Shown here piece after piece: positions 1 through 21,664 of a stretch of DNA of 64,000 nucleotides. The DNA comes from a virus. The notes below the pieces were generated by a model. That model ran no database searches. It was not told the origin of the DNA and was given only the letters and a program-made list of their open reading frames with translations. Each line of letters begins with the position of its first letter. Position 1 is the first letter of the stretch. Both the position numbers and the translations under genes were made by a program. The stretch covers positions 1 to 64,000 of IMG/VR virus record IMGVR_UViG_3300001450_005500, one strand, 5' to 3'.

Positions 1-196
1 AAAAACACTTTCGAAATAACTACCTAAGCAGCTACTGCAAGTTCTACACTTTGTAGTGGTAGAGCACTAGCGATAAATCCATTCCCTCTAGGGAAGAACT
101 TAGCGACTTTAGAATAACTATTTTCGCCAGTTAAAAAGCATCGTTGCTTGCCATTTATACTTCCATCAGAATGTCAAAGCCATGTCACCCCCGTAT
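1..196. other. non-coding segment with short hairpins
   Basis: No credible ORF is seen. Three short perfect hairpins are visible: 44-56 (CTACA stem, 3-nt loop), 82-95 (TTCCC stem, TCTA loop) and 136-149 (AAGCA stem, TCGT loop). It lies beyond the terminator of the leftward genes, so it may belong to the next transcription unit to the left. The hairpin density resembles the other non-coding stretches of the left arm. No function is assigned. Confidence 0.5.
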
Positions 197-236
197 AAAA
201 AAAAGCTTATAACAAGGCCGAAGCCCCGTCATAAGC
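197..236 (-). terminator. intrinsic terminator of the leftward gene unit
   Basis: Read on the minus strand, a stem of GCTTAT/ATAAGC with an inner GGC/GCC pair and a TTCG-type loop (205-236) is followed directly by eight T residues (204-197). This is a classical Rho-independent terminator. It lies about 45 nt past the stop of the last leftward gene (283), so it closes the leftward unit. Confidence 0.9.
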
Positions 237-282
237 GAACAATCACACAAGTTATCGTTAGATAACCTATCCAAGGGAATTG

Positions 283-648
283 TTATCTGATTGTGATGTC
301 ATAATTTGTTGCTGCCCAAAAGTCTATTTCATCTATAGTTTTTTGTCCAACTCCTTTTACAGCCTCTAATTTACGTACTGTAACTGCTTCCAGATCGTGC
401 ACATAAACTATGTGTAGACCTTTAATACATTTCTCTGCCCTTGTGCTCAGAGTAGTAGGATTAACTTTATGTGCCGCTAATGTAGCTGCTAGTTCATCCG
501 CTTTTGATAATACTTCATCAAGTTTGTCATGATTTGCTGTATGCTTTTTCATGTTGTCTTGTAGCTCATTGTTCTCTTTTGAATATCCAATGTAAAACAT
601 TAGAAAAATAATAAGACATAAACTCCCAAGGATAATTAATAGTGTCAT
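283..648 (-). CDS. membrane-anchored RNA polymerase alpha-CTD-like (HhH) protein
   Basis: 121 aa. Residues 2-20 form one strongly hydrophobic N-terminal membrane segment, followed by a charged linker of about 45 residues. Residues 66-112 match the C-terminal domain of the bacterial RNA polymerase alpha subunit: a conserved start (LSTRAEKCIKG), a DLEAVT stretch and the helix-hairpin-helix KGVGQKTIDEI (98-108). The family uses this fold to bind UP-element DNA and to contact activators. Here it would be held at the membrane with the DNA-binding end in the cytoplasm; the topology is inferred. It overlaps the upstream gene by ATGA (645-648), which implies coupled translation, and is the last gene before the terminator. 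A generic HhH protein is the alternative. Confidence 0.7.
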   Translation of the reverse strand: MTLLIILGSLCLIIFLMFYIGYSKENNELQDNMKKHTANHDKLDEVLSKADELAATLAAHKVNPTTLSTRAEKCIKGLHIVYVHDLEAVTVRKLEAVKGVGQKTIDEIDFWAATNYDITIR

Positions 649-1097
649 AGTAAAGATTTTAATTTGGTTAATAAATTAGTACTGCGTGATTTGTAATGTT
701 GAAGTAGTTTATCAACAACACATAGAAAGGTAGAGTTATCTACATTGTCAAGGTTAGCTTCATAATATTTTGGATCACTATGACCATCTTTGTGGTCATG
801 TATAGATTCATCTATATTACTAAGTGCATCAACAAAGTCTTCAGGGTTTTTAGAGTTCTTTAAAGCTTTAAGTAAGTCTCCAGGCCCTGCTACATTGCTT
901 TCTTCTGTGTGTTTAGGTGTTACCTTAACATAAATTTGAACATCTATTTTAACGTCTTCCTGTTCAAGTGATAGACGTGCAAGACTGTCCAGTTGTTCGC
1001 TATACTTATCAGCAGTTTCTAATTCTTTTAGAACACTGTTACTGTTTTTGAGTATTTTGCTAATTCCCTGGGTCTTACTGATTGATTTGTTTGCCAT
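645..1097 (-). CDS. hypothetical acidic/helical protein
   Basis: 150 aa, family not recognised. The N-terminal 70 residues look helical and possibly coiled-coil (repeated Leu in KILKNSNSVLKELETADKY). A short beta-like stretch follows (VKIDVQIYVKV, about residues 49-59). The middle is acidic and rich in Asn, His and Asp, and the C-terminal helix is Leu/Lys rich. There is no signal peptide or membrane segment. Its stop codon TGA overlaps the ATG of the alpha-CTD-like gene, so the two are probably co-expressed and may work together. Confidence 0.75.
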   Translation of the reverse strand: MANKSISKTQGISKILKNSNSVLKELETADKYSEQLDSLARLSLEQEDVKIDVQIYVKVTPKHTEESNVAGPGDLLKALKNSKNPEDFVDALSNIDESIHDHKDGHSDPKYYEANLDNVDNSTFLCVVDKLLQHYKSRSTNLLTKLKSLL

Positions 1098-1157
1098 ATC
1101 TAATATTTAAAGTTATAAATATACAAATAATTGTATAACTATATAGTTAAAACTTAT

Positions 1158-1694
1158 TTAAAAGTCATTTGTATCTGATTCCATATGTGCTACTAGTTTC
1201 TTTTTGTTTATTATGTCACCAGTATCCATTGACATGAGTTTAGAAAGGTCATCAGGGTCCCGTAGATCTGCTGTGTTTCCACTATCAAAATCTTCCATGT
1301 CACCTTTAACTTCATTTATCATATCATCTAAAGGTAAATCATCTAACTCTATACCTCTCTTTCTCATCTGCTTAGCAAATTGACTTGCAATAGCTTTCAA
1401 AGTTTTCGCAACTCTAGGCCCTTCTTCATCATTATCACTTTCTACTAGTCTTCTTGTTATAAACTCAGACAAAAAGAATGCAGCAAAGAAAAAGTCTTCA
1501 TGATCTTTAAGTAACCCTCGTTGTATAGCTAAAGTAATAGTTCTTTCTAATATTGCTGATTTAGCAGCTTCATCTTCATCGAATTCATTTAACGAGTCAT
1601 TAAAACATTTAATGATCTCTTTTTGTTGGTCTCTATCGAATCCAACTGACTCTCCAAGAGAGTTTGCGTCATGGTTGTACCTGGTTTTCCCCAT
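1158..1694 (-). CDS. hypothetical acidic protein
   Basis: 178 aa, not recognised. It is highly acidic, with helical stretches at about 15-110 including an aromatic-rich patch (EDFFFAAFFLSEF, about 66-78). The C-terminal region is Asp-rich (DLRDPDDLSKL), loosely like the acidic motif of the two proteins encoded at 3306-3878 and 4654-5046. The start at 1694 is preceded on the minus strand by AATTAAACAA, a motif also found before two other leftward genes. No catalytic motif is seen. Confidence 0.75.
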   Translation of the reverse strand: MGKTRYNHDANSLGESVGFDRDQQKEIIKCFNDSLNEFDEDEAAKSAILERTITLAIQRGLLKDHEDFFFAAFFLSEFITRRLVESDNDEEGPRVAKTLKAIASQFAKQMRKRGIELDDLPLDDMINEVKGDMEDFDSGNTADLRDPDDLSKLMSMDTGDIINKKKLVAHMESDTNDF

Positions 1695-1731
1695 AGTAAT
1701 TGTTTAATTAAGTTAATAAATACTCTTAACC

Positions 1732-1851
1732 CTAGTAAATGAATACTAGGATTAAGATAAGAATACAGATGACTACTCTGTGTAATAGGATTGTACGCTT
1801 ACGTTGTGCAAGCTCCCATCTAAGTCTTCGAATAAGTTTAACTTTATTCAT
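1732..1851 (-). CDS. 39-aa putative single-pass membrane microprotein
   Basis: A short ORF in the gap between longer leftward genes. The N-terminal half is very basic (MNKVKLIRRLRWELAQRKR). The C-terminal half is a hydrophobic helix (VVICILILILVFIY), and the stop is TAG. This arrangement (positive inside, tail anchor) suits a small inner-membrane peptide. It is in the same orientation and spacing as its neighbours, and its start is preceded by an A/T-rich leader. Function is unknown. Without homologues it could be a chance ORF, but the basic-plus-hydrophobic layout is unlikely to be random. Confidence 0.5.
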   Translation of the reverse strand: MNKVKLIRRLRWELAQRKRTILLHRVVICILILILVFIY

Positions 1852-2628
1852 AGTTTAAAATATAATGGGCTGAGATTACACCATTATACACACATCTTTA
1901 GTTGTTTAGTTCCTCCTTAAGGTTAACAACATATCCACTATTGTCTCCAATAGTAATGTGCAGTGACGGTTAGTTAGACTAACCACTTCTAATGTTACTA
2001 CTTACTCACGAATTACTCGAACGTAATATAAAGCCGCTAAACTCTATATCAGTCTTTTACTCGCAAACAGAATCATCTTGAGGAATCATCCACTCTCTGT
2101 CAAGCAGAGATTTAGTCACCTTTCGGGAGTAACAGGCCAACACTTGTTCTTTTAGTTATTGTTATGCATTTACTTTCCAGGATGTGGTTGGTCCACAATT
2201 GCTTCGTCTTCTTTTGAAAGACAAAATACAATACATCCTAGGTACAACTTTTCATCGTTATAGTATTTCAGGTTATATCTTATTCCCTAAGATTGCCCAT
2301 CATACTGACTTATACTCTTTATTAACTTGACAGTTAACTCAGAACTAAATCTACAGTTATTTCCTATTGCTATCGCTAGCTCATCCCTCCAACTAAAAGA
2401 AGAGATACACATACCCTCAGACATTCGTCCATTGGTGCCGTGTAGTATCCTGCTTGCTTGGTTTGACCATTATAAATAATGGCAACAATTACTGTTCATG
2501 CGTGCAGTAATTGTCATTAGGTACATTGCTGTACTTATCGGGCCAAGCCCACTACCCAAGGTTGTAACACCTTGACGCTCATAGCCTAAAGTCTATTTAT
2601 ACTCGCTATGACGAGTTTATTGATTGTA
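1852..2628. other. 777-nt hairpin-rich non-coding region (candidate structured RNA)
   Basis: No ORF longer than a few dozen codons is seen on either strand. Many non-overlapping perfect hairpins occur: 1861-1888 (8-bp stem), 1901-1930, 1937-1954 (7 bp, TCTC loop), 1968-1984, 2012-2027, 2094-2110, 2183-2197, 2206-2222, 2277-2293, 2322-2337, 2369-2380, 2467-2482 (7 bp), 2485-2514 (10 bp), 2521-2534, 2540-2550, 2557-2574 and 2601-2616. It separates two leftward genes and would be part of their transcript. A structured RNA, a hairpin-type regulatory region or a replication origin are all possible. Some of the 5-bp hairpins will be chance. Confidence 0.5.
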
Positions 2629-2913
2629 TTATTTCTGCCAGGTTGCTTTGTTTCTGAGTCGTTTGTACGCCCCATAGTCAAATGATCGCTGTAATTTCTC
2701 GCTATATCTTACGAAAGATACAGATATAATAAATGATATTGCTACTCCCATACCCATGAGAGCTACTCTGCCCAATGTTTGGGCTTCATCATATACACCA
2801 GCTGTAACTAGTGCATATATTAGCATTACTAATAGTATGACAGTTGCAATTCCGAAGAATATAGACATTATCAGACTAATGATGCTTTTAATAAAGATCT
2901 TATTTCTTTTCAT
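2629..2913 (-). CDS. small membrane protein with two or three TM helices
   Basis: 94 aa. Hydrophobic segments at about 8-38 and 50-68 suggest two transmembrane helices; the first is long and could be a helical hairpin. A basic C-terminal tail follows (RYSEKLQRSFDYGAYKRLRNKATWQK). There is no signal cleavage site. The family is not recognised. It sits among other small leftward genes, several also membrane-associated (283-648, 1732-1851). Superinfection exclusion or remodelling of the host inner membrane are possible roles, but nothing in the sequence decides this. Confidence 0.7.
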   Translation of the reverse strand: MKRNKIFIKSIISLIMSIFFGIATVILLVMLIYALVTAGVYDEAQTLGRVALMGMGVAISFIISVSFVRYSEKLQRSFDYGAYKRLRNKATWQK

Positions 2914-2955
2914 ATAATAATGTATTCATATTTATTAGAAGAACAGCAATACCCA

Positions 2956-2982
2956 AGTAAACGGTAGTCAATACCATTTACT
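2956..2982. repeat. intergenic hairpin
   Basis: AGTAAA-c-GGTA, loop GTCAA, then TACC-a-TTTACT: ten pairs with one C/A mismatch in the middle of the stem. It lies between the leftward genes at 3014-3214 and 2629-2913, where it could affect mRNA processing or translation of the downstream gene. No T-run follows, so it is not a standard terminator. Confidence 0.55.
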
Positions 2983-3013
2983 GTGAGCGCTGGTCCACGA
3001 TACTCGCTATATT

Positions 3014-3214
3014 TTAACATGTTTTACAGTCTTCTAACCACTTAGCATGTACGCTAACTGCAAATTTAAGTATAATTACATGTATTGCAAAGTTCTTGAG
3101 TGTACCATCTAGTACTACTCCGAAGCCGAAAGCTCCTTTTGTCCATTCTAAATTAAGTGCTAGTCTTAGCCTTTTGAAGAATGTTAAATCGATTAATTCC
3201 TTGGTTTTAAACAT
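3014..3214 (-). CDS. hypothetical 66-aa protein
   Basis: A short protein with a basic, aromatic N-terminus (FFKRLRLALNLEW), a glycine patch (GAFGFGVVLDG) and an alternating hydrophobic stretch (FAIHVIILKFAVSVHAKW) that looks like beta strands rather than a membrane helix. Two Cys lie at the C-terminus. Not recognised. It is kept as real because the frame is uninterrupted by competing ORFs, fits its neighbours in strand and spacing, and has the AATTAAAACAA leader motif 9 nt before its ATG. Confidence 0.6.
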   Translation of the reverse strand: MFKTKELIDLTFFKRLRLALNLEWTKGAFGFGVVLDGTLKNFAIHVIILKFAVSVHAKWLEDCKTC

Positions 3215-3261
3215 AAATGTGATATTGTTTTAATTGTTAATATAAGTTGTTAAACAAAGTG

Positions 3262-3296
3262 GTGATGAGTGTACTTTTACATACACCCATCATCAC
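3262..3296 (-). terminator. hairpin after the 3306-3878 gene (possible terminator or processing site)
   Basis: GTGATGA+GTGTA (3262-3273) pairs with TACAC+TCATCAC (3282-3296), giving 12 pairs with a 3-nt bulge and an 8-nt loop. It starts about 10 nt past the stop of the leftward gene at 3306-3878. On the minus strand it is followed by CACTTTGTTTAAC, a weak T-rich tract. Partial termination or 3'-end protection is plausible. Confidence 0.5.
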
Positions 3297-3305
3297 ATTA
3301 AGTTA

Positions 3306-3878
3306 TTATCCTAATTCCTCAGGACTCTCTTCCACAGCAGTCTCTACATCGTTCATTTGTTCATTACGTGTAGTTCCACCTGTTACATCACCTTCATCAC
3401 CCATAATCTCACCTGTATCTAGGTCAAGATTACCTAAGTCTGATAAATCTTCTTGTCCATCTAGGTCGTGACCATTAGATTTGAATACAGAAGTTATAGA
3501 CTCATTCTTAAGTATAACTAAAGAACAAGAGTCAACAGTTCTATCACCTACCATATAAGATGGTACTTGTCTAGTAACTATGTCTCCAGGTATTTGTTTA
3601 CCTACGAAGTTCTTAATCATTGAAGGGTTACCACTTTTCCATACAGGATTATCTGATGAGTCAGTAGTTTGTGCAATCACTCTAGTTCTTTCTACTCCAA
3701 ATGGATTAGATGGATCTCTGAATGTTGCAATGTAGTAGTTTCGACCGTCTGAAGTCTGGTTTAGCTTACCATTGATACCGTCTTTGTCATCAACAAGAGT
3801 TGCATCTGGTTTAGATGATAATCTGATGTTAACTAATAATAATTTTGCGTCAGTCGCCACTGTTTGTAAATTTGCCAT
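3306..3878 (-). CDS. hypothetical protein with acidic C-terminal tail (possible ssDNA-binding protein)
   Basis: 190 aa. Residues 1-130 appear beta-rich (KLLLVNIRLSS, NYYIATFRDPSNPF, TRVIAQT, CSLVILKNESI). The last 60 residues form a long acidic tail with EDLSDLGNLDLDTGEIMGDE. A compact beta domain plus a disordered acidic tail is the layout of phage single-strand-binding proteins such as T7 gp2.5. No OB-fold motif was proven, so this is a suggestion. The EDLSDLxxL motif recurs in the protein encoded at 4654-5046. Codons look less A/T-biased than in the rightward genes, which may mark strong expression. Confidence 0.65.
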   Translation of the reverse strand: MANLQTVATDAKLLLVNIRLSSKPDATLVDDKDGINGKLNQTSDGRNYYIATFRDPSNPFGVERTRVIAQTTDSSDNPVWKSGNPSMIKNFVGKQIPGDIVTRQVPSYMVGDRTVDSCSLVILKNESITSVFKSNGHDLDGQEDLSDLGNLDLDTGEIMGDEGDVTGGTTRNEQMNDVETAVEESPEELG

Positions 3879-4653
3879 GATTGGTTTGTTTAATTGGTTT
3901 ATTTATAAATAAGGTTAATAGTACTCTAGATAAAAGAAAAGGACTTATACGCACCCACCTATTTGGATGGATTACGATGCCTAATCTATGTTACAGACTA
4001 GCATAGCGTGTTACACGTGCACACACTGTACTATCTGGAGCTTGTCTATATCCAGTGGACTGCTCAAAACACCACTGAGTTATTGTTATAAAACATATGA
4101 CATAACATAGCACCAATGATGGACAGTGACCTAAGTTTAGGTGTATCCGTCAGATTATTACTGTGTATTTCATGTCCAATCATCCATCAAAGTGGTGAGT
4201 AGGTAACAATCCGTAGACTCGAATCTGCAATCATTGTGCTATATTATATCAATCAGTGTCTCAGGGAAAGAGATACATAATGTCGTAAATAGGGTCTTTG
4301 AGACCAAGTGCACACAATCGAACTTAAATTTGATTTAATGTGCAATAACTAGTTAGAGTGATTGAATTTGGCTGGATAATGAACAACAAGTAAGATGGTA
4401 TGAGTGGTGTTGTGTCGTCTAGTGACTAGTTTCTCTTAAACAATTGCATATCCGTATGCAGATACGTCTAATCATGTCTTGATACTGACTACTATGGTCC
4501 GTTGGATGTGACATTCCCACTGATACATCATCTTACTGTGTGTCCAATTAATAGTAAGAGTGCTTGAATTTGGATGGTAAAAGAATTGTAATTGTTCATG
4601 ATGCAAATTGATTAGAAGCACACACTCAGATAGGTGAGTATGTACCTCTTTCC
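3879..4653. other. 775-nt hairpin-rich non-coding region with internal repeats
   Basis: No convincing ORF. Perfect hairpins include 3970-3986, 4007-4017, 4053-4077 (6 bp), 4084-4107 (6 bp), 4129-4142, 4213-4228, 4293-4305, 4309-4344 (6-bp outer stem around the 6-bp hairpin 4324-4338), 4445-4460 (6 bp, TCCG loop), 4531-4559 (7 bp) and 4624-4639. Two near-identical 21-nt segments lie at 4355-4375 and 4557-4577, and ATTTGGATGG recurs at 3961-3970. It is part of, or upstream of, the leftward transcript before the 3306-3878 gene. Size and texture match the 1852-2628 region. Confidence 0.5.
4355..4577. repeat. pair of 21-nt imperfect direct repeats
   Basis: AGAGTGATTGAATTTGGCTG at 4355-4374 and AGAGTGCTTGAATTTGGATG at 4557-4576 differ at two positions; the next base (G) also matches, and similar A/T-rich sequence precedes both. 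The shorter core ATTTGGATGG appears again at 3961-3970. They could be protein-binding iterons or related RNA elements. Confidence 0.55.
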
Positions 4654-5046
4654 CTAAGCTGTGATTTCTAAGCTATCTAAGTCAGATAAATCATCTTTCT
4701 TAGACTTCTTAGTATCCCAGTCTTTAGTATCGAGTACAACCTGTGAACCCTTCTTGTCAGCTAAGTAAGCCTCGAAGTCTTCAACATCGTCACGGAAGAT
4801 AGTGAAGTTCCTGTGTCTAAGGCGTCCAACAACATCAGGCATATGATGCCCTGCTACTGCTACCCCTTTAAGGAACTTGTTACCATTCTCCGCTGTATGC
4901 ACACATGTGTCTAGGTCTAACACCTGAGCTCTAGTTGATGGAGTCTTTACCTCTCCATTCTTGTCAAGCTTAGGTGCTGTCATCCAGCCCATGATTGTTA
5001 CAGGTTGTAACTCAGTTTGTCTTATTGTTGTATGTGTATTTCCCAT
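4654..5046 (-). CDS. hypothetical protein with acidic DLSDL tail
   Basis: 130 aa, not recognised. The N-terminal part is mixed beta (QPVTIMGWMTAPKL, RAQVLDLDTCVHTA, KGVAVAGHHM), with a helix at FRDDVEDFEAYLADKK. The tail reads KKDDLSDLDSLEITA, nearly the same motif as EDLSDLGNLDLD in the protein encoded at 3306-3878. This is the first gene of the leftward unit, next to the divergent control region, so it is probably expressed early and strongly. A DNA-binding or replication-accessory role is possible but unproven. The start is ATG at 5046, preceded by A/T-rich sequence and a 7-bp hairpin. Confidence 0.7.
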   Translation of the reverse strand: MGNTHTTIRQTELQPVTIMGWMTAPKLDKNGEVKTPSTRAQVLDLDTCVHTAENGNKFLKGVAVAGHHMPDVVGRLRHRNFTIFRDDVEDFEAYLADKKGSQVVLDTKDWDTKKSKKDDLSDLDSLEITA

Positions 5047-5270
5047 AGCTCAATAGTTTAAACTGGTAGCATCTCTCATGCTACATCATCCTCCTTGTAT
5101 TCTACTGTGTTGTATTGAATGACTTATTGTCAACCACAGCATACTGTTTAAATGCAGACTTGTATTCCTAACAATACAAGAGAGATTTAGGACGGGGGAT
5201 GTTTCCGTCCAAAATTTAGTGGGGGTGTTTGATTATTGGTGGGTTAAGATCTCGAAGACTCAAACAATTA
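5047..5270 (-). promoter_or_regulatory. hairpin-rich leader of the leftward unit
   Basis: Upstream of the first leftward gene lie perfect hairpins at 5066-5084 (GTAGCAT, 7 bp, CTCTC loop), 5159-5180 (CTTGTATT, 8 bp, 6-nt loop), 5190-5210 (GGACGG, 6 bp) and 5226-5266 (TGTTTGA, 7 bp, long loop). No TAnnTTTG box facing left was found, so the leftward promoter is either of a different class or read by a phage polymerase. The hairpins may be structured 5'UTR or promoter elements. Confidence 0.5.
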
Positions 5271-5301
5271 ATATAAATTTAACAATAAGATAACATACAT
5301 C

Positions 5302-5323
5302 TAATACTATAGTATTATATTTG
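5302..5323 (+). promoter_or_regulatory. 16-bp palindromic operator overlapping a TAnnTTTG box
   Basis: A perfect palindrome TAATACTATAGTATTA (5302-5317) abuts and overlaps the Bacteroidota-type -7 box TATATTTG (5316-5323). A repressor dimer bound here would block the promoter. No clear TTG -33 element lies at the usual distance, so an activator or repressor is likely to matter. It drives the micro-ORF at 5328. Confidence 0.65.
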
Positions 5324-5327
5324 TTAT

Positions 5328-5405
5328 ATGGAAAAAGAAAAGATAGATATATCTCCAATAATATATATTTTAGTTCTAGTAACAGTATACTGTATGGCTA
5401 TGTAA
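5328..5405 (+). CDS. 25-aa leaderless membrane microprotein
   Basis: The ORF reads MEKEKIDISPIIYILVLV then TVYCMAM, an acidic/basic start followed by one hydrophobic helix. The ATG lies 5 nt after the TAnnTTTG box, where transcription would begin, so the mRNA would be leaderless or nearly so. A terminator follows at 5423-5446. Promoter, operator, tiny ORF and terminator make a self-contained unit between the two gene arms. A small membrane peptide made at once after infection (exclusion, signalling) is conceivable. If the ORF is not translated, the unit would instead make a short RNA of about 115 nt. Confidence 0.5.
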   Translation: MEKEKIDISPIIYILVLVTVYCMAM

Positions 5406-5422
5406 TAGCTTTATGTAATCAA

Positions 5423-5446
5423 ATTCTTTATAGAATATTTTTTTTA
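5423..5446 (+). terminator. intrinsic terminator after the 5328 micro-ORF
   Basis: A 5-bp stem ATTCT/AGAAT with TTAT loop (5423-5436) is followed by A and eight T residues, with further T-rich sequence after. The stem is short and A/T-rich but the T-run is strong. It would end the small rightward transcript started near 5328. Confidence 0.65.
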
Positions 5447-5763
5447 TAATATTTTTTTACTTAGTTTTGCATCACTAAACATCACTGGTGAAAGTCCAGG
5501 ATACGGGATCAAGAAAATAAATGATATGACATCCCGCTACTACGTCTAATGGTATATACAATTCATACTATATACCACCACTGTAATTAAATTTACAGCT
5601 TAGCTTTCAAAAAGTCAGTGGACTTCTCATCAAATAGATGAGTTTCGGGAATACAAACACACTTGCGGGAGGGATATGTGTTTATTCACAAAGTTAAAGA
5701 ACTGAAATAATAAGCAGTTTACTAGAGTAACTCAATTAACAATGCGAAATACTTGATATATAC
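5447..5763. other. compact hairpin cluster upstream of the main rightward promoter
   Basis: No ORF. Between 5485 and 5683 seven hairpins follow one another: 5485-5499 (CTGG), 5504-5536 (CGGGAT), 5550-5577 (TGGTATATA, 9 bp), 5581-5598 (CTGTAA), 5612-5625 (AAGTC, 4-nt loop), 5626-5642 (CTCATC, AAATA loop) and 5655-5683 (AAACACA, 7 bp). It is bounded by a terminator on the left and a promoter on the right. A structured RNA or an origin is plausible. The strand is not known. Confidence 0.5.
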
Positions 5764-5794
5764 TTGGTTGGGGGGATTTTTTTGTCTATCTTTG
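5764..5794 (+). promoter_or_regulatory. main rightward promoter (Bacteroidota TTG / TAnnTTTG)
   Basis: TTG at 5764-5766, a 20-nt spacer and TATCTTTG at 5787-5794 match the Bacteroidota housekeeping sigma consensus. The start codon at 5814 lies about 15 nt past the expected transcription start. A G-run lies inside the spacer. This promoter would feed the tightly packed rightward genes. Confidence 0.75.
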
Positions 5795-5813
5795 CCAAAT
5801 ATAATAGCCAAAG

Positions 5814-6173
5814 ATGAAGCGAATAAAGAAAGAAGTTATAAAGAGAAAGGATTTTAACCCTAAGTACCTTAAACTTGTAAATGTAATTTTACCTAACCCA
5901 TTGACCACAAAAGAGATTGAAGTACTATCTTGTTTTATGGAACTGCAGGGGGATTTAGTAGAATTAGACAGGTTTGGAACTCAAGCTAGATCTTTAGTTA
6001 GAGAACGATTAGGATTTAAAACTAATTCTAATTTAGATAATTATATAAAGTATTTTAAACAGAAGGGAGTAATAATGAAGGATGAGAAGACAAACAGACT
6101 TGTACTAAGTCCTAAAATAGATGTAAAAAAGGAGAATGAGGTAGTACTTACATTCGCCTTTAAAATTAAGTAA
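5814..6173 (+). CDS. putative winged-helix DNA-binding protein
   Basis: 119 aa. The first 20 residues are very basic. A helix (LTTKEIEVLSCFMELQ, about 31-46) is followed by a helix-turn-helix-like stretch (TQARSLVRERLGFKTNSNLDN, about 57-77) and a KQKGVIMKDEKTNRLVLSP hairpin that fits the wing. The layout suggests a winged-helix regulator or packaging/replication accessory. It is the first gene of the rightward unit, directly after the promoter, and could control that unit or the palindromic operator. The function is inferred from fold only. Confidence 0.6.
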   Translation: MKRIKKEVIKRKDFNPKYLKLVNVILPNPLTTKEIEVLSCFMELQGDLVELDRFGTQARSLVRERLGFKTNSNLDNYIKYFKQKGVIMKDEKTNRLVLSPKIDVKKENEVVLTFAFKIK

Positions 6174-20866: not shown

Positions 20867-21664
20867 ATGAATAAAGGAAATCTTGTATATGTAAAACCAA
20901 TCATAAAAGAAAGATGGCATGGCCTGCACAAGCAAGGCCGTGCCAAATTTCAAGGTACTGCGGATGTGATACAAGCTGTGTATGATACGATTACAGGCAC
21001 GTTAGCAACTGGATTATCAAATAAAGACGAAGAAAGATTAGCTAAAACATTAGGTATCGATCTTAGTCCAGTAAGTTCTAATGAATATTGGAACAATTTT
21101 AAGATAAAACTTGAAGATAAAACGCAAATTTATGATGAGCGTATACCTCTTCAAGAGTTACAAATTAGTGTACTAAAAGCTAGTAAGTTTATCGCTAATT
21201 CTCAAAAAGAATTAGACGAAGGACGTTGGCCAAGTGCTAAGTATGTGATCTACGATGAAAAAGGAGAAATTGAAAAAGAAGCAGTTGCAGCTGAGGTTAA
21301 AGCTAAAGCTAATAAATTGTTTTCTGATTTAAGCCCTGCGAAACGTTTATCATTACTTAAAATATTTGGTAAGGCTTCAGACAATGTATCTGATGACTTT
21401 TCATATGCTAAACTTTATGAGTTAGTAGAAGAAGAGCCAAAAAGATTTATTGAAGTAGCTAGTATGAAACCTGCAGAGATTAATACTAAAGCTCTTATTT
21501 TCGATTTAGAAAATAAAGGCATATTAAGAACTAAAGGTGCGGCATACTTATACAACGATCAACAAATTGGTTTTGATTATGATAATACTGTAGAGTATTT
21601 ATTAAATCCTAAAAACCAAGAACTTTTAGTTAAACTAACTGACGATTTAAAAGCTAGAAAATAA
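20867..21664 (+). CDS. conserved virion protein downstream of capsid
   Basis: 265 aa, alpha-helical and soluble, with no signal or membrane segment. It contains DIIQ-type helices, a charged domain (EEEPKRFIEVASMKPAEINT) and ends ... LTDDLKARK. It lies between capsid and a neck-type protein and overlaps the latter by one base (TAATG). In crAss-like genomes a similarly sized conserved protein of unknown function follows the capsid gene, which supports a structural or head-completion role. The exact function is unknown. Confidence 0.6.
   Translation: MNKGNLVYVKPIIKERWHGLHKQGRAKFQGTADVIQAVYDTITGTLATGLSNKDEERLAKTLGIDLSPVSSNEYWNNFKIKLEDKTQIYDERIPLQELQISVLKASKFIANSQKELDEGRWPSAKYVIYDEKGEIEKEAVAAEVKAKANKLFSDLSPAKRLSLLKIFGKASDNVSDDFSYAKLYELVEEEPKRFIEVASMKPAEINTKALIFDLENKGILRTKGAAYLYNDQQIGFDYDNTVEYLLNPKNQELLVKLTDDLKARK

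Follow-up and report, generated by a model that had tools for sequence, protein, structure and literature searches.

What do the hairpin-rich gaps in the first 5.8 kb of this phage DNA encode? The window, i.e. the whole stretch of 64,000 nt that was analysed, belongs to an IMG/VR record of 92,459 bases, and a sequence-only reading had proposed for seven gaps in its left arm large ornate RNAs, hairpin promoters as in phage N4 or an origin. In our view, the leftward operon of what is probably a marine crAss-like phage has its head in this arm, which likely holds an island of structured RNA genes, comprising a GOLLD RNA that would be cut by a Pistol ribozyme, and its neighbours. Terminase and portal families were confirmed in the phage; the label crAss-like is our assumption, made from gene order and from the known affinities of these two families.

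Both strands of the seven gaps were read, folded against dinucleotide shuffles, scanned for perfect hairpins, searched with all Rfam families (whole library, positions 1-5900, E <= 10) and compared with related contigs. The relatives (L numbers) comprise 57 loci collected via the large terminase, and further contigs collected via the GOLLD signature. GOLLD and Pistol reached the gathering score in the window, which no other Rfam family did. Both are encoded on the minus strand and are followed by a small ORF:

2550 to 2616, minus strand: Pistol ribozyme, predicted cut 2555|2554 (67.6 bits; kept in the sister species)
1867 to 2550, minus strand: full-length GOLLD RNA, about 684 nt (211.7 bits; 11-sequence alignment)
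1732 to 1851, minus strand: ORF of 39 aa that starts 16 nt past GOLLD and has a hydrophobic stretch (conserved in L019, L023, L054 and L159)

The Rfam model of the GOLLD core matched the minus strand from 2241 to 1867 (model positions 1-416, E 1e-59) with a score above the curated cut-off of 150 bits. The 11 GOLLD RNAs of the group align over about 680 nt, and 64 of the 164 pairs in this alignment exhibit compensatory changes. Pistol was detected from 2616 to 2550 (gathering score 34.5 bits; model positions 1-68; E 1e-11), and its counterpart in the sister species scored 69.4 bits. The P1-loop pseudoknot reads UCAUAG/CUAUGA in the window; the sister species has UCUGAG/CUUAGA, with both sides of one pair changed, and the two-base junction is GU in the former and AU in the latter. 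This junction, GU in most cases, lies between P3 and P2 and is where Pistol ribozymes cleave (PMC4604425), which places the predicted cut at 2555|2554 and yields a product that would start with UAGU-GGGCUU. Just UAGU would thus remain ahead of the first GOLLD helix, whose pairs start about 4 bases past the predicted cut. In GOLLD-bearing relatives lacking Pistol, DNA similarity spans the whole RNA and ends at 2550, which is the last base of Pistol.

From its sequence and position, Pistol is predicted to free the front end of GOLLD with a defined 5'-OH. Transcription of the leftward operon from about 5.2 kb would produce an RNA containing Pistol and then GOLLD. Self-cleavage of Pistol between G2555 and U2554 would fix the mature 5' end of GOLLD, a 5'-OH four nt before the first conserved helix, and the freed RNA of about 684 nt would fold, probably into a multimeric RNA cage by analogy with another GOLLD, env-38, which forms multimeric RNA-only cages (PMC12286853). 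The sister species (contigs behind L003, L159 and L174) has likewise retained Pistol together with GOLLD, with 45 extra nt between the two elements. Apart from the sister species, none of about 120 GOLLD records checked has Pistol beside GOLLD. Since most GOLLDs checked lack Pistol, the ribozyme cannot be required for GOLLD generally; as a general companion it was rejected, the pairing being confined to one lineage (window and sister species). No link between GOLLD and a ribozyme was found in the literature covered, mostly papers open without subscription, and this is weak evidence of novelty. A ribozyme exactly at the 5' boundary, its activity being predicted, would give a direct answer for this phage to how GOLLD ends are made, and its placement hints at the importance of a defined 5' end.

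Alternatively, GOLLD might mainly serve as structured 5' leader of an mRNA for the small membrane-like protein encoded at 1732-1851, with Pistol altering stability or translation of this mRNA. Proximity of the ORF and its conservation together with GOLLD in the four relatives named above would fit such a role. However, numerous phages of different kinds possess GOLLD too, frequently with internal tRNAs, it makes RNA-only cages (PMC12286853), and a tblastn search of the records behind L079, L098, L101, L117 and L149 detected no copy of the ORF. We consider a leader function unlikely and retain the GOLLD RNA matured by Pistol as the preferred reading.

A second gap, 3879-4653, harbors a further large RNA, designated RNA-B, and a motif that is repeated within it:

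3940 to 4658, minus strand: RNA-B, second large structured RNA (conserved in the sister species; folding z -4.1)
4541 to 4585, minus strand: repeated motif, copy 1
4339 to 4383, minus strand: repeated motif, copy 2

RNA-B is 72-75% identical to the sister species (72% to L003). The consensus structure comprises 116 pairs, of which 16 are compensatory and zero are broken, and its energy is -91.5 compared with -44 (s.d. 6) for column shuffles. As these shuffles preserve column conservation and not dinucleotides, and as a two-sequence structure favours intact pairs, the compensatory count is a fairer figure than energy or unbroken pairs: the observed 16 exceed both the mean (6.9) and the maximum (11) of the shuffles. 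A helix of 19 bp was found by reading; one of its strands lies where RNA-B begins, at the upstream gene's stop codon, and the other about 400 nt further on. In the sister species, a 93-aa ORF is located within a loop of RNA-B. No Rfam family matched RNA-B (scan of 1-5900), and an exact-pattern search with its most conserved block retrieved sister-species contigs only. Known from two species, RNA-B is a promising candidate for a giant RNA not described before. The repeated motif, which may represent an RNA module or a leftward promoter, occurs at two sites only in the genome, plus a variant at 5223, and in three copies in the sister species. It also matched one other contig, L183.

The gap 5447-5763 contains a conserved RNA on the opposite strand, designated RNA-R:

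5462 to 5469, plus strand: TAnnTTTG-type promoter box of RNA-R, TAGTTTTG (at the same place in most aligned relatives)
5471 to 5698, plus strand: RNA-R, conserved structured RNA (15-sequence alignment, P2 covariation, energies, model hits)

RNA-R has a length of about 230 nt and begins right behind its host-type box. Across 15 aligned relatives, five of the six P2 pairs have changed on both sides in a compensatory manner, and none of the pairs is broken. On average, the remaining hairpins are more stable than their shuffles, except for P6 taken alone; as MAFFT aligned the 3' half poorly, P3-P7 are supported by energies and by eye and not by formal covariation. Outside the training set, the covariance model built from the 78-nt core detected 11 further loci with E 1e-11 to 1e-17 (L004, L005, L008, L009, L014, L015, L026, L027, L045, L050 and L054), several of which are near-copies of one another or of alignment members. 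Each relative holding the region has a single match to the core, always upstream of the same rightward gene. RNA-R has no match in Rfam, and its copy in L036 had no blastn match in cultured phages. A coding function was rejected, the ATGAAG frame stopping early in L044, L048 and L028 (by eye). Two pairing ideas were discarded as well: the G-rich loop paired with the cognate C-rich leftward leader no better than with non-cognate ones (permutation p 0.78), and the GGAGG required for anti-Shine-Dalgarno pairing is not kept in L039, L044 and L048. RNA-R may influence transcription or translation in the host, or play a part in replication. Being present in every relative with the locus, preceded by a host-type box and lacking an Rfam match, it is a promising candidate for a phage RNA gene not described before. 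A possible 25-aa ORF with a hydrophobic stretch, 5328-5405 on the plus strand, is located directly behind a TATATTTG box within 5271-5446.

The gap at the left end carries part of a further RNA gene:

1 to 192, minus strand: 5' half of a phage tmRNA (80% identity to the complete tmRNAs in L054 and L019)

This gene is divided between the record ends, with the acceptor strand and the T arm at the far end of the record, and the split tmRNA was missed by Rfam and ARAGORN. Reading from the two record ends revealed tRNA-like ends, a T arm and a tag reading frame that ends with ASALPLQSVELAVAA and a stop codon. In relatives the homologous position is occupied by complete tmRNAs, and that of the sister species scored 75.2 bits, which is above the Rfam cut-off. 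The tag ending is unlike those known from Bacteroidota hosts. Tag-less RNAs that resemble tmRNA, 83-114 nt long and with tRNA-like ends, were observed on the minus strand in L034 (2203-2285, just upstream of GOLLD), L048 (about 275-357) and L159 (6216-6329).

Taken together, the expectation that large ornate RNAs at the scale of GOLLD or ROOL would be found was borne out by two gaps, one being GOLLD and the second the large conserved RNA-B, and covariation in related phages was indeed detected as compensatory changes in GOLLD, RNA-B and P2 of RNA-R. Two further gaps are RNA genes (tmRNA and RNA-R), but a small protein is encoded in one gap and another contains mainly a terminator-like hairpin, so that the RNA reading holds in part. 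These features and the leader of the leftward operon, which occupies 5047-5270, are:

2910 to 3020, minus strand: ORF of 36 aa, rendering the gap 2914-3013 coding (protein conserved in L003 and L159)
3257 to 3298, minus strand: terminator-like long hairpin, then T-rich sequence, after gene 3306-3878 (found by reading; folding z of the gap -3.6)
5192 to 5255, minus strand: leader or promoter element of the leftward operon (conserved in L019, L021, L022, L023, L026, L039, L054 and others)

The list of non-coding gaps has to be revised accordingly: 2914-3013 is nearly all ORF, 1732-1851 is a conserved ORF as well, and 5271-5446 holds a possible one.

The hairpins could instead be DNA elements, either N4-type promoters used by a virion RNA polymerase or an origin of replication. 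The leftward genes had been said to lack TAnnTTTG boxes, and none was present within 70-75 nt of 22 leftward starts examined, with one exception about 40 nt before the start at 3020 of the 36-aa ORF, within the upstream gene. GC skew switches at about 5 kb, as does gene direction, and the conserved leader element 5192-5255 and the repeated motif are candidates for leftward promoters, all of which would be compatible with DNA elements. However, the common small hairpin that N4-type promoters call for is missing upstream of the leftward genes (by eye, none is shared before nine left-arm leftward starts), the repeated motif is restricted to its two genome sites and the variant at 5223, two gaps are known RNA families, and the compensatory changes fit RNA. 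N4-type hairpin promoters are not supported, and for an origin the switch at about 5 kb speaks neither way; a DNA-level role of the hairpins is on the whole very unlikely, and we keep to the island of structured RNA genes.

The hairpins had been described as present in every gap, an observation that stands in its main point and is confirmed in part. Perfect hairpins (stem of at least 5 bp, loop 3-8; control 300 dinucleotide shuffles) are in clear excess in 1852-2628 (13 of at least 5 bp vs 4.7 expected; 7 of at least 6 bp vs 1.2), in 1-196 (4 of at least 5 bp vs 1.05) and in 5047-5270 (2 of at least 7 bp vs 0.08, one having 8 bp), but not significantly so in 3879-4653, 5447-5763, 2914-3013 and 3215-3305. 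Stems of 8-10 bp were overstated, as this definition yields one 8-bp and zero 9-10-bp perfect stems. Minus-strand folding is more stable than that of shuffles in six gaps, with z of -5.0 (1852-2628), -4.1 (3879-4653), -3.6 (3215-3305), -3.1 (5447-5763), -3.0 (2914-3013) and -2.8 (5047-5270), but z is only -0.7 in 1-196. Some coding controls are equally low (4654-5046 minus, z -5.4; 20867-21664 plus, z -6.4); therefore energy alone is not decisive, and homology and covariation decide. Chance hairpins in A/T-rich sequence, for which the counts within shuffles in several gaps and the equally stable coding controls might speak, are extremely improbable in view of the Rfam E-values of 1e-59 and 1e-11 and the compensatory changes, and are already refuted for 1-196, 1852-2628, 3879-4653 and 5447-5763.

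Relatives carry other elements directly 5' of GOLLD. A conserved structured element without Rfam match is found there in L098, L101 (2540-2678, plus strand), L117, L149 and L067. Its stem keeps pairing through changes, a pseudoknot AAUACAA/UUGUAUU may form, and the core recurs in L185, apparently without GOLLD after it; this element is possibly a new self-cleaving motif. L023 (1195-1245, minus strand) and L054 (2901-2951, minus strand) carry in this position a small stem-closed motif, TGCGAACTCTAC..GTAGATTCTATTTAT, which likewise has no Rfam match and may be ribozyme-like or promoter-like. It recurs in the record of the window at about 83,430-83,510 (minus strand), upstream of a 332-aa leftward gene, where the copy near 83.4 kb has a longer closing stem (15 bp) and a different P2 loop. 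A scan for further copies of the TGCGAACT motif showed both stems in the already known contigs only. A distant phage (L045, L182, L184) contains a Hatchet candidate (L182, 478-735, plus strand; 48.5 bits, slightly below the cut-off of 51), Pistol, and GOLLD about 3 kb past Pistol if the record is circular. A Hatchet ribozyme with 56.1 bits is located in L032 (352-564, minus strand), in the same left arm of the relatives. In L045 (1-1283, minus strand) and L184 (1-685), long ORFs are absent from the 1.2 kb or more that come after Pistol, a stretch that would perhaps reach 1.9 kb in a circular record and is possibly another giant RNA. Rather unlikely, and offered tentatively, is the wider proposal that GOLLD 5' ends in this group generally derive from exchangeable self-cleaving cassettes, i.e. 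Pistol and the two unclassified motifs as new ribozyme classes, with RNA-R as a new group-universal class and RNA-B as a further class of giant RNA.

Compared with known systems, the tmRNA shares with its family (RF00023) the pairing of tRNA-like ends, the T arm and a tag frame ending in LAVAA, and differs in being phage-borne. RNA-B resembles ROOL in size and ornateness but had no ROOL match in the Rfam library scan of 1-5900 (E <= 10); we take the ROOL model to be part of the Rfam 15 library. GOLLD of the window has the conserved 3' core over threshold, the ornate 5' domain and the phage location in common with its family (RF02032), but Pistol is directly in front of it, its linker contains no tRNA, and it adjoins a phage tmRNA and other RNA genes. 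The window's Pistol shows all stems, the P1-loop pseudoknot, the GU junction and the phage setting of its class (RF02679; PMC4604425), and differs in that its position coincides exactly with the 5' boundary of a giant RNA, which would be the 3' product of its cleavage.
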